Assembly (NCBI RefSeq): GCF_000003815.2
Contig: NC_049992.1
Coordinates: 12,507,432 to 12,571,431, forward strand
Direction: 5' to 3'
Length of the DNA stretch: 64,000 nucleotides
Source: Branchiostoma floridae
Lineage: Eukaryota > Chordata > Leptocardii > Amphioxiformes > Branchiostomatidae
Positions within the stretch are counted from its first letter, which is position 1, and each line of letters starts with the position of its first letter. The notes beneath the pieces were generated by a model, which saw only the letters and a list, made by a program, of their open reading frames with translations, had not been told where the DNA came from and made no database searches. The translations under genes were made by a program, and so were the position numbers. Of this stretch, positions 34,401 through 40,400 are shown piece by piece.

Positions 34401-37400
34401 TAGGAGCATCCAGGTCTCCTGTATTGAGATCATTTACTAAATCGCTAATGTACAGATTAAATAACGAGGGGCTTAATACACAGCCCTGTCTCACGCCGAT
34501 TTCTATGGGGAAAGTTTCACTCAAGCCTATCTTGGTCTTTACACAAGCTTCTGATTGATTGTATAAACTATTCATGATATCGAAGAATTTGCCAGAAATG
34601 CCTTTTGAGAGAAGTTTGAATAGAAGACCATGATGCCAAACGGAATCGAAAGCCTTCGATAGATCAACAAAACAAGCAAAGAGTCGTTTACCGGACTGTG
34701 TGTATTTAGAGATTAGGGTTTTCAATATAAATATATTATCTGCTGTTCTGTATTTTTTTCTGAATCCTGTTTGGTTAGGTTTTAATATTTCGTTTTCTTC
34801 CATAAAAGTTGACAATCTTTTGTTAAGGATCGAGCTGAATAATTTTCCGAGACAGCTTGAGATGGCAATACCCCGATAATTGTTTGGATCATCTTTTCTT
34901 CCCGACTTGTGTATTGGGACAATATAGCTTCTCGACCAGTATTGTGGGAAGGTTCCTGTTTCTAGTACGCTATTAAATAGCTTTGCGAGGGGTCTCAGTA
35001 AAAGTATTTTTCCCCCTTTTAACATCTCATTAACTATCATATCCTCCCCGCTAGCCTTTTTGGTTTTGAGTGCTTGAATCGCAGTGCAAATTTCAGATTC
35101 TGTGACGCAATAGTCTAGGGGTCCTTGACTTGTGTTATCTTTTTGTAAAACCTTTAATTTGTTTAATATTTCTTTCTCGAAATTGTAGTCAAATACCTGT
35201 TTCTCTAATCTAGACCTGCTGTGAATGGATTTAAAGTGATCTACCCATGTATCTGTTGGTATGACTTCTTGATCTGTTGATTTTTCATTCTTTAGTTTTT
35301 TTAGTAGGTTCCAGAACGCTGTTGGGTTTTTGTCCTGCAGATTTTGTAGTTGTGTTAAAAGATAGTTTTCATGTTCCCTTTTACGTTTTCGAATAAGTTT
35401 GTTAAATTCTTTCTTTTTCCTGAAGTAACTGCCTCTTATGAACGGGTTTTTTGGGTTGCGCACAAGTAGATATCTTAAATTTCGTAGCTCGTTTCTCGCC
35501 TCAAAGCAGGATTTGTCAAACCACCGTTTGTTTCTTTTAGATTGTTTCGATTTCTTCTTATGTTTTACTTGCAAAGACATTCTGCCCGCTGTCACTAATA
35601 TTTCTTGAAACTCTTTTACTTTTTGGTCTAAGTCTGCTTTTGTTGTTGCACTATTAAGACTAAAAGACGAGAAGTCTTTTAATTTCTGAGTGATTATCGG
35701 GCAGTTTAATGCATCTATAAATTTTTGGGTAGAGTCTGGACCCCAAACAAATCTCTCTGGGAAAAGACGTGAATTTGATTTTGCTACTTTTACATGTTCA
35801 AATGAACGTGATGCTGACCTAATATTTAATGAGACCATACAATGATCTGAAAAGTCTGTTAATGGGTGTACTTTGAACATACTGATGTTATGAAATAGTG
35901 TACTGCTGGCGATTACATAGTCGACCGTGCTACAGCCATTGGGCTGGTAGCAGGTGTATTTGCCACTCAAATCCCCCAGTATCCTCCCATTCAGTATGCG
36001 TAAGTCAGACTGGGTGCATAAATTTGTCAAGCTTTTGCCAAAACCGTTTGCAGGATTTCTATCGGAAAAGTTTCTAGGGATGTCTATATTAGTGAGCATT
36101 TCAGGTTCAAGGTCTAAATCTAAGGGGTCATCTTCATTAAAGTCTTGCAGAGAACCTAACCGGCTGTTGAAGTCTCCCCCAAGAATCACATAACCTTTCG
36201 AGGAAAACAGCTCTATGTCCTGTTCTAAGACATCAAAAATCGAATCGTCGGCTCTTTTATGAACGGCCGAATAAACAGGACTTATATATACACTACAGAG
36301 AAAAACATCTTTGGGTGTACCTAAGAGGTCTTTTGATACACGAACCCAGAGTAAATCGTTACATTCAGAAGTACCCCGTTCTCTTTTGATGTGTTTTTCA
36401 ATTTCTTTTCTAAAATAAAATATGATTCCTCCTGAATTTCTTTTAGCTTTCTGATGTTTTTGTCTAAATGATGAGAGATGATGAAAATTTTGAAAGTCTA
36501 CTTCTGATGATTCATTACTCCAGGTTTCAATAAGAGCAAAGAGATCTAGTTTTTCTAATCTACTTCTAAAACTATCTTCTTCAAGTTTCTTACCCAATCC
36601 ATGTACATTCCAAAAGCCTATATTCAATGAACTGTAAGGCATAGTTTTGCAAAACCAGAGTACTGACTTTTTCCCTGCTTTTACGATAAATAAGCCTACC
36701 TTACTGAGGAGCATTCTTAGTCATCTACACTTGTAAAGTTTCTACTATATCTTGTTGTTCCATTTGTCTAATACTACCCAAGGTCTCATATACTTAACGT
36801 AACTTAACTTAATATCCAGCGAAGTTGTAGACTCCGTTTATGTATTATTCTTTTAAGTATCACAACATTTCTATCGTTCTGTATGCTATCCAAATATCCA
36901 GCGAAGTTGTAGACTCCGTTTATGTATTATTCTTTTAAGTATCACAACATTTCTATCGTTCTGTATGCTATCCAAATATCGTGAATAATGTAAGGATACG
37001 GCGCTGGAGGTTAGAACCCTCTGTAGCTGCGACGCCAGGCTGGGTGATCTTCGTGTCGCTGGGGTTGAAACCATGTTCTCGGCCCGTTCATCTCTCCTGC
37101 CAACCAGTCCAGGTATGGGTCGCCATAACCGTGGATTCCGTGGAGTGGTGTGTTGAGCGGTGGATGCCAGTCTGGGTTCTGTCCGTCGCGTGGACGATAG
37201 TCTGCGTTCGGTCGGTTGTGGTGGTGTGTACGCCAGTCTGAGTTCTGTGGGTCGCGTGGACGATAGTCTGGGTTCTGTCGGTCGTGGTGGTGTGTAGGCC
37301 AGTCTGAGTTCTGTCGGTCGCGTGGACGATAGTCTGGGTTCTGTCTGTCGTGGTGGTGTGTAGGCCAGTCTGAGTTCTGTCGGTCGTATGCACGCCAGTC

Positions 37401-40400
37401 TGAGTCAGGTCGGTTGTACGTGCGCCAGTCAGGGTTCTGTCGCTCGGACGGGCGGCAGCCTGGATTCGGCAAGTCGTGCGGACGCCAGTCTGGGTTCGGC
37501 TTCCAGTCAGAGTTTGGGTTTGATAGACGCCACCCTTGAGATGTGCGTTGCCTGGTTTGCTCTGACGTCTGCGTGAGACTTGCTTCTGAGCGGGTTTGTC
37601 GGTCTGCCAACTGTGTTGGAGCACTGGTCCTTTTTTTCCCTCTATTGTAGGGACCCATTCCTACAGTCGGATGAATGGCAGCCTTCCAGCTAGCTGCCAG
37701 CACTTTAAGGCCGTCTCTGTTGAGGTGGTACCCATCTTGTTTGTACAGAGTTGCCTTGATGGAACCATTTTCCCCTAGATAGCTGTTGTCTGCCAGGCTG
37801 ATATAGGAGGTTTCTTGGTTGAGAATATCCAAGAAAGTGTTCACGTCTCGTATGACTTCCATCAGATGTTTGTCGTTTCTCGGCGGTATGGCAGACATAA
37901 CTATGGTCGCGTTGGGGTATTTTGAGTGTGTTGTCGCTACCAGCTGTCTCAGGTTCTCCGTTACACCGTTTGCCGCCCTTTCCTCTCTTACGTCATTTGT
38001 CCCCACGTGGTAGACAATGCACTTGGGATCCGAGTACACCGTTGTTGTGATCAGTTCTATGGCTTGAGGAACTGTCATCGCTGAGTGTTTGTCTGTTTGT
38101 TTACCTGGGTAGAGCACGCTGGGGATAATGCCTTTTGTGTTTGAGTCCCCAATGATGACTATTTCTGCTAAGCTGTTATCACCTGAGCGCCTTGGCGCTG
38201 GCCGTGTCTGCGGCTGGTCATTGTTACGTGTTGAGTGGGATGATTGGTCCTTTGTCTTGCGTTCTGCTTGTAGTTTGTTGTTATCAGCTGTGCCGGACTG
38301 TGACCGACTGCTGCCGCGGATAGCTTTTAACGCACTTGCGATCTGTTCTGTACCTGTTGTGTCGTCCGATAAAACCTCGAATCTGTTTCTAGTGGGGATG
38401 GTGAGCACGGCTGCAGCGGTGTTGTTTGATGACTCATGTTGTCTTGTTGAGGGAGCTGTTTTTGGAGAGGTGTCCGCCTGACTCACGGTGCGGTCCCCGC
38501 TTTTTGTGATTTTCTGTTCCAAGAGCATTATTCTGTTTCGTAGGTTTTTGTTCTCTGCTTCTAGTGCATTGACGCGTCTTTTTAGTGTTTCACTGTCGCT
38601 AGTTTTTGCCATTTTCTCGGCGGGAGTGTCCTTTGTTTTCGACAACAGAGCTTCCATGTGAGAAATGCGCGACGATAAGGTGTCAATCAGCGAAATGCGC
38701 GCAGACAATGCGTCAAACTTCTCGTTTTCGTGAACGATTCTGTTTGTCAGAATAGCCTCCAGCTTATCTACACTACATTGGAGCATAGAAAGTCTATCGT
38801 TGTTGTTCCCATCGATCGCTGCACTGGTGTGTGACCCAACCGTCATCTTTGGGGTTGTTTCCTCATGGTCGTGTGACCCAACCGTCATCTTTGGGGTTGT
38901 TTCCTCATGGTCGTGTGACCCAAACGTCATCTTTGGGATTGTTTCCTCGTGGTCGACGTTTTGGCGTGATTCGGGCGACTCTGTGTCACTGTCAGCTGCA
39001 ATGCTATCCAGTGAGCAGTGATTGCATATGAACACACTTTCCACATTTTTGATTAGCTCGTGTAGTATGAACTCATGCACGCCAGTACACGCATAATGGA
39101 ACCAGTTATGACACATGTCACACTGGATAACACCGGCATCCTCGGGCCCAGGGCGGTTACATTCATTGCACATGATATCTTCACATTCCACTTCAGCGAT
39201 CGTACATGTTGATGCCATCGACTTTTTCAACTCTTCGAAGGTGTACATTACCCAGAGGTAACATGCTGGGCCTTGTACCAGGATCTTGCAAGTATGATAG
39301 ATGTGTAGAGTTACTGTACCAATGAGTTCGTCTGTGTCTGGGTCATGGAAAGGCGCTGTGAGCTGGTTACCGTTCACGTATTCACCGTTCTTTCCTTTCT
39401 TTCCTTTCTTCTCAGTTGGCATGTTATAATGAGTTTCCACAATCTCTATCCACTTTTTGTCCGAATCTGCCGGGATATACACCGTCACACTGTTTTCATT
39501 GTACTGGATGAAGTAACTATCATCTGGTTTGGCCTTCTTATCTCGTTGCGCTGGCTCTGCGATTTCGTTTGTTTGGTCGTAAAGCCGTCGACGCTCGTCG
39601 TCTGATAGAACATAGAATGCCTTGCTTACCTCGCGGAAGTTTTGACGGTCTGCGGCCAGGAGATGCTTGTCCTTTGTAGAGTTGGTAGTTTTCTCGTGTT
39701 TCTTCACTTCTTCTTTGTACGCAGAGATGATCTGGTTTTCCTTTGCGTCGTTAGCTATTCCCAGTAAGCTGTATAGCTTGCCGGGTGTCCGTTTCTTGTG
39801 GTCGTCGTTCGCCATTTTGTCGGCTTGGGTCCGCTTGGTCTTTGTTCTTTGCTGCGCTGTTGATTTCCCGACAGAAATTGGCTAATAAAGCTCTAGAAAC
39901 GTTTAGAAACGTTTAAAAATGTAACTAGGGTGGCTGTATACGGTGCCACCTTTACTTTGACGTACTTTGACAGATCCTATTACCGTAAAAGCAGGGAAAG
40001 TCGTTCACTCAAGCGGAGCGGTCTAACGGAGGTGTTAGCCTCGCCGCCATCTTGGATAGCATCTAGTTAATAAGTGTGGAACAAAATGGGGGAAGTGGTG
40101 TCAAAGCATAAGTTTGTGACGTGAAAACTTCATTTGAGACCAGCTTTACTGGAATGAACCTTGATGCAGTATCCTTGCTGCAGTATACGTTTTGGCAGCT
40201 AGGTGGCATGAATGTACTGCAAATTACTATTTAGAAATTCATTATAAGGTTGCTTCCCTCGACTAACAGAGAGGTTTTGGGGTGGAAGTTTAAATGCCAA
40301 GTGTTGCCAACTTGTCTTTTTAATGGCTAAGTAAATGCAGACCGATCAATCTCATTCAGAATACAACACCTGAAATGAAAAAAGGACAATCCAAAACCTA

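Follow-up and report, generated by a model that had tools for sequence, protein, structure and literature searches.

A J-domain-like module lacking HPD at the N terminus of ORF1 proteins in a LINE family of Branchiostoma floridae

The first open reading frame (ORF1) of a long interspersed nuclear element (LINE) in the genome of the lancelet Branchiostoma floridae encodes a protein (ORF1p) whose N-terminal segment is almost certainly a J domain by descent, as judged from sequence comparison. The element lies on the reverse strand of a 64,000-nucleotide stretch of contig NC_049992.1 (positions 12,507,432 to 12,571,431; assembly GCF_000003815.2), the whole of which is referred to here as the window, and is classed as a LINE by its second frame (ORF2), in which an APE-type endonuclease (PF03372) and a reverse transcriptase (PF00078) were found. 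The explanation we favor, and regard as moderately probable, is that the J domain was acquired by the LINE lineage, kept, and repurposed as a docking module uncoupled from Hsp70.

The Pfam DnaJ family (PF00226) matches residues 14–80 of ORF1p over profile positions 2–63 of 63, with an E-value of 5.8e-9 and a score of 36.4 bits, the cut-off being 27.8, and the N-terminal 105 residues alone match it with an E-value of 1.5e-10. Hsp40s are the top hits in a phmmer search of PDB sequences (E = 4.6e-7), and a DnaJ chain is the best PDB match for a profile built from 11 LINE J rows (E = 1.2e-13). When the LINE and host J profiles were aligned with hhalign, the match had a probability of 98.5% and an E-value of 1.5e-15. 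The original prediction, made from the DNA letters, had recognized a J-domain pattern at this N terminus and proposed a profile search; both the Pfam family and the host J profile bear it out.

Genome-wide searches covered one assembly of 513.4 Mb in 431 contigs. The LINE is multi-copy, with some members lacking the 5′ part (e.g. L002, L059, and L060), and looks recently active, since the 40 scored matches among 387 candidates in a search with its 3′ end, the window included, are all 94–100% identical. Relatives are described here as four sets, according to identity with the window ORF1: set A (84–99% over the matched parts), set B (48–56%, with the PHD finger kept), set C (27–29%, without PHD), and set D (22–24%, with PHD and a diverged J domain carrying a seven-residue insert). 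Identity between the ORF2s of different sets drops to ∼43%. The sequence pattern of helices I–IV is kept in sets A–C, where the core positions L14/Y15, L18, I29, Y33, V63, F67, L70, S71/D72, R76, and Y79 are invariant (alignment A4). As a separate observation, the set C ORF1s L014–L018, L020, L022, and L024 share a C-terminal motif of the W[PS]WHPxxxWPPM type.

Queried with ORF1, the genome yielded at least 80 matches (49 of 499 candidates scored); queried with the DnaJ family it yielded 73, and 33 of these lie within ORF1s of this LINE family. The 33 were sorted by hand against the other locus lists, with a further match (C9:7259278) left unassigned. The diverged J-like form of set D produced 15 matches. 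The original prediction was to fall if the J segment were absent from all other copies, and the 33 matches show it to be family-wide. At E ≤ 0.1, DnaJ is matched in 12 of 14 full ORF1s, the esterase in all 14, and PHD in six; we take the two without a DnaJ match to be both set D rows. A J segment is shown by 37 of the 49 LINE sources read (the window, L001–L028, L040, and L047–L065), and in none of the 12 that do not show one was a complete ORF1 N terminus without it found. These segments represent 34 separate copies, because L001 is the window itself and two pairs overlap (L003/L005 and L006/L007); the segment of L053 is shortened. J-less relatives were also sought in a sample of 12 upstream regions, chosen from 42 ORF2 matches, and none was shown, although this sample is weak, 10 of the regions being truncated at the 5′ end, gapped with N, or lacking an ORF1 start that could be read. 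Both L062 and L065, from the same sample, carry J, that of L065 being already among the DnaJ matches. No relatives were found in viral contigs. The idea that every esterase frame of the genome carries J was rejected on account of long frames with an esterase and no DnaJ match: 36 of 144 genome matches to PF13472 (150 of 208 candidates scored) are open frames of >700 residues outside the LINE family, and, compared by eye, none is among the DnaJ matches or those of the segment-X search. These 36 perhaps belong to other LINE or host families.

The residues at the Hsp70-activating HPD tripeptide were examined in an alignment (A7) of 13 LINE rows, drawn from the 34 separate copies with J, and seven full-length host J domains, the latter drawn from 18 J loci fetched, one of which (L040) is itself a copy of the LINE. 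HPD is present in all seven host domains and in 0 of the 37 LINE segments. Its columns hold E41-K42-T43 in the window ORF1p; the original claim that HPD is replaced by HEK therefore stands as to the loss and fails as to the register. The His of HEK sits one column before HPD, at a position where four of the seven host rows have an aromatic residue (Y, W, F, F) and all nine rows of sets A–C have H, Y, or F. Position 41 is Glu in eight of these nine and Asp in the other. The net charge of helix II is −4 to +1 in all 13 LINE rows and +2 to +4 in all seven host rows. In canonical J domains, the positive face of helix II and the HPD motif bind Hsp70 and fire it. The absence of HPD from every LINE segment marks the domain as J-like and not as a canonical Hsp70 co-chaperone, and it presumably no longer fires the Hsp70 ATPase.

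In a tree of the 13 LINE and seven host J domains, a single branch with support of 100/100 separates LINE from host, which is compatible with a single capture. The domain is older than the split of ORF2s that share ∼43% identity. Of 11 pairs compared, seven have a dS that is finite and above zero, and among these the ratio of nonsynonymous to synonymous substitution rates (dN/dS) in J ranges from 0.05 to 0.37. A pooled test used the five of the 11 pairs in which dS of J is below 0.5, including L011/L012, a pair without synonymous change; these hold 39 synonymous and 39 nonsynonymous differences, giving p ∼5e-6 if the share of nonsynonymous sites is taken as 0.74 and p = 1.7e-4 if it is taken as 0.70. 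By these counts the J domain is under purifying selection, which is the outcome of the comparison between copies that the original prediction had proposed.

Several observations weigh against the favored explanation. A single-sequence structure model of residues 1–275 is poor and uninformative (pLDDT 38). The J domain of set D lacks the helix IV motif and goes unrecognized when compared directly with host J domains (10.5%); compared with the other LINE J rows it is matched at 93.7% (E = 1.9e-7). In the J tree, set D is placed beside L011 with a branch length of 3.8 (82/58), a placement that conflicts with the trees of both ORF1 and ORF2 and that we read as a long-branch effect. The J domain of the window/L009 pair is weakly constrained, with dN/dS of 0.37 and p of 0.06 (site share 0.74) or 0.16 (0.70), and the values for the next domain (0.21), PHD (0.12), and the coiled coil (0.27) of this pair are all lower. 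Of the earlier proposal, the loss of HPD and the maintenance of the sequence are supported, and the kept fold and its other use are putative.

Residues ∼100–205 of ORF1p are conserved across all sets (alignment A3, 12 rows), and the place of the J domain ahead of them is constant. Positions K83, Q87, and W94 of the alignment, corresponding to K177, Q181, and W188 of ORF1p, are invariant, and Y79 and G88 (Y173 and G182) are conserved at ≥90%. No Pfam family matches this segment above its curated cut-off in the 12 rows; weak matches were obtained to RnlA_toxin in seven rows (best 0.018), to DUF3378, the RNase H3 N-domain, in two (best 0.079), and to ten further families. The part of RnlA matched is TBP-like. 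When aligned with a profile of eight RNase H3 N-domains, which were found in eight of 12 genomes, the segment gave a probability of 86% and an E-value of 4.9e-6 (hhalign score 34.8, 44 columns); none of 60 column shuffles reached this score (highest 16.9), and the reversed profile scored 15.0. Sets AB, C, and D taken separately scored 27.0, 29.1, and 35.0 (52, 66, and 87%), with 0 of 40 shuffles reaching the score in each case. Because these separate matches extend over 19–24 columns, the statistical likeness comes chiefly from a single strand pair, Y-x(6-9)-QG. A search of PDB sequences with the segment returned two chains, both of histidine decarboxylase (E = 0.4), and nothing relevant, and the TBP-like fold is for that reason one that we infer. 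In the complex of Ta-RNase H3, as the pertinent sections of PMC4132731 describe it, Tyr43 stacks on a DNA sugar and the Gly52 amide touches a 2′-OH, and the isolated N-domain in gel-shifts bound weakly, and only to RNA/DNA hybrid. Y173 and G182 of the window ORF1p match Tyr43 and Gly52 by spacing. Residues ∼100–205 are thus probably a TBP-like nucleic-acid-binding domain. Both this probable domain and the age of J before the ORF2 split were missed by the original prediction, the observation of which is confirmed and the interpretation partly supported.

On the explanation favored here, a J domain would have been gained by the LINE lineage, most simply once, and descendants would keep it at the N terminus of ORF1p. 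Within the ORF1 particle it would act there as a module for protein docking, by way of the retained core and a LINE-specific "EVSKAF" helix III, and its partner would be ORF1p itself, ORF2p, or some factor of the host; such a docking role is plausible, if somewhat short of probable. The TBP-like domain would hold either the RNA of the element or the RNA/DNA hybrid that arises in target-primed reverse transcription, while the coiled coil would multimerize ORF1p and the esterase would contact lipid. More tentatively, the protein could represent a new class of ORF1p, in which an Hsp70-uncoupled J fold and a TBP-like hybrid-binding domain jointly build the ribonucleoprotein particle (RNP) and keep the hybrid in place while target-primed reverse transcription proceeds, so that the RNA-binding problem of esterase-type ORF1ps is solved without RRMs. 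The J-like segment and the probable TBP-like one are two directly testable modules of ORF1p. On the favored explanation a LINE would have captured and repurposed a chaperone domain, and its diverged copies would form a natural series of J domains under selection for a role besides Hsp70 stimulation.

The main rival explanation, which we consider unlikely, takes the domain for a pseudo-J of the Pam16 kind that would pair with a host J protein, or sit on Hsp70 without firing it, and allow the element to restrain or borrow the chaperone cycle, for example during folding of ORF2p or the RNP. Pam16/Tim16, the HPD-less J-like partner of Pam18, offers a precedent, and the J core and helix III are kept in sets A–C, but the positive face of helix II, which binds Hsp70 in canonical J domains, is lost in the LINE rows. 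It is improbable that the domain recruits Hsp70 independently of HPD: although selection maintains the J sequence, as such a role would have it, HPD is missing in 37 of 37 segments, and all 13 rows have lost the charge of helix II. Even less credence is given to a neutral passenger, a captured fragment in decay. The much eroded J of set D would fit such a fragment, and the window/L009 pair, taken alone, is compatible with neutrality (p 0.06–0.16), whereas dN/dS in the other pairs is low, the pooled counts depart from neutrality, and J is retained across ORF2s of ∼43% identity. Finally, that there is no J domain at all is scarcely credible in spite of the absent HPD and the poor single-sequence model, a helical stretch with chance likeness being contradicted by the profile matches (DnaJ in 12 of 14 ORF1s; PDB profile E = 1.2e-13) and the many loci, and a one-off host fusion by the number of loci with J in ORF1 (33 of 73 DnaJ matches; 34 copies).

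The ORF1 and ORF2 trees disagree, which points to shuffling of frames between elements. In the ORF2 tree the window groups with L011/L012 (support 99), with 82% identity to L012 over 683 aligned residues versus 67% to L009, whereas in the ORF1 tree it groups with L009 (99), at 56% versus 48% identity. Similarly, L018 pairs with L020 in the ORF1 tree and with L016/L025 in the ORF2 tree. Both are quick trees, and that of ORF1 carries long-branch warnings. Two other copies, L004 and L008, diverge from the window sequence at the same base, 38262, inside ORF1. Elements seem to have swapped either ORF1 or the 5′ half of it, and the 38262 breakpoint suggests module exchange between the half running from J to the coiled coil and the esterase half. 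Reticulate evolution of ORF1 is described in the relevant part of PMC4120745, in line with the exchange suggested here.

The features of the window copy are collected in the table below. Alignments to L003, L004, and L006–L010, seven loci that represent six separate copies, begin at 40051–40059 and place its 5′ end there; its 3′ end was placed at ∼32952, where most 3′-end matches to other copies stop (query base 189). The esterase of the window ORF1 scores above its Pfam cut-off (34.4 against 32.9 bits) and the PHD finger below (21.9 against 24 bits).

Features of the LINE copy, in window coordinates (residue numbers are those of ORF1p)
Feature	Position	Strand	Basis
Whole LINE copy, ∼7.1 kb	∼32952..40058	−	alignment to other copies
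5′ untranslated region of LINE	39816..40058	−	5′ end placement
ORF1, 934 residues	37011..39815	−	open reading frame and Pfam
J (DnaJ-like) domain, residues 14–80	39576..39776	−	Pfam PF00226; profile–profile match with host J domains
E41-K42-T43 codons, in HPD columns	39687..39695	−	alignment A7
Probable TBP-like (RNase H3 N-domain-like) segment, residues ∼100–205	39201..39518	−	hhalign; weak Pfam matches
Y173...K177...Q181-G182 motif, aligned to RNase H3 YxSGKxxxQG strand pair	39270..39299	−	alignment, hhalign
PHD finger, residues 216–267	39015..39170	−	Pfam PF00628, E = 1.8e-4
Tandem repeats of 42 bp, three copies, in-frame, after PHD	38829–38954		repeat scan
Coiled-coil-like stretch, residues ∼345–440	38496..38783	−	leucine spacing by eye; weak bZIP_1 match at 407–437, E = 0.021
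SGNH/GDSL esterase, residues ∼550–722	37650..38168	−	Pfam PF13472, E = 4e-8 over 594–702
Tandem repeats of 66 bp (22 residues), in-frame, ORF1 tail	37094..37447	−	repeat family D1
Exact direct duplication of 82 bp, between ORF1 and ORF2	36811..36974	−	repeat family D2
ORF2, 1193 residues	33133..36714	−	open reading frame and Pfam
ORF2 endonuclease	∼35842–36612	−	Pfam PF03372, E = 1.9e-11
ORF2 reverse transcriptase	∼34150–34896	−	Pfam PF00078, E = 5e-38

Elsewhere in the window, an open frame at 23849–24760 on the reverse strand matches the Sfi1 spindle-body protein (E = 3.9e-9); the LINE shares its strand at a distance of ∼8 kb and is perhaps inside an intron of this host gene. Tandem repeats of ∼171 bp occupy positions 3–1405, and repeats of 51 bp, within a long repetitive open frame, occupy 14198–14877.

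The original prediction knew of no described LINE with J, PHD, and esterase together, and text searches of the open-licence PMC literature likewise revealed no publication on a LINE of such a layout. The ORF1 parts named in the relevant section of PMC4120745 are PHD, RRM, CCHC, esterase, coiled-coil, and zf/lz, the J domain not being listed there. PMC6338049, which deals with accessory domains of retrotransposons, contains neither "DnaJ" nor "J domain," and the "DnaJ" met in a portion of PMC9004415 was rejected, being the name of a neighboring gene, DNAJB9, and no LINE domain. Among cellular proteins, Hsp40/DnaJ proteins share the helix I–IV sequence pattern with LINE sets A–C and differ in having HPD and a basic helix II and in not being borne by a retrotransposon. 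Pam16/Tim16 likewise lacks HPD, a mechanistic analogy only, and sits in a different protein context. The bacterial RNase H3 N-domain (DUF3378, TBP-like) resembles ORF1p in the strand pair with Y...K..QG; unlike RNase H3, ORF1 has no Pfam match to RNase H, and the likeness is mainly to one strand pair, with Glu27/His28 of strand 1 unmapped. The closest layout is that of the Type IV ORF1p of CR1/L2 LINEs, represented by zebrafish ZfL2-1, in which, according to the sections of PMC3905857 that treat it, a multi-domain ORF1 with a coiled-coil-like stretch followed by an SGNH esterase precedes an ORF2 with endonuclease and reverse transcriptase; the family shares the ORF1 esterase (14 of 14 ORF1s) and is a candidate member of the CR1/L2 clade. 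Esterase-type ORF1ps are said in section 13 of the same article to lack any structural RNA-binding domain, and for this family the TBP-like segment is a candidate answer to the want of a recognized nucleic-acid-binding domain. Unlike the ZfL2-1 type, the window ORF1p carries N-terminal J-like and TBP-like domains ahead of the modules that the two have in common.

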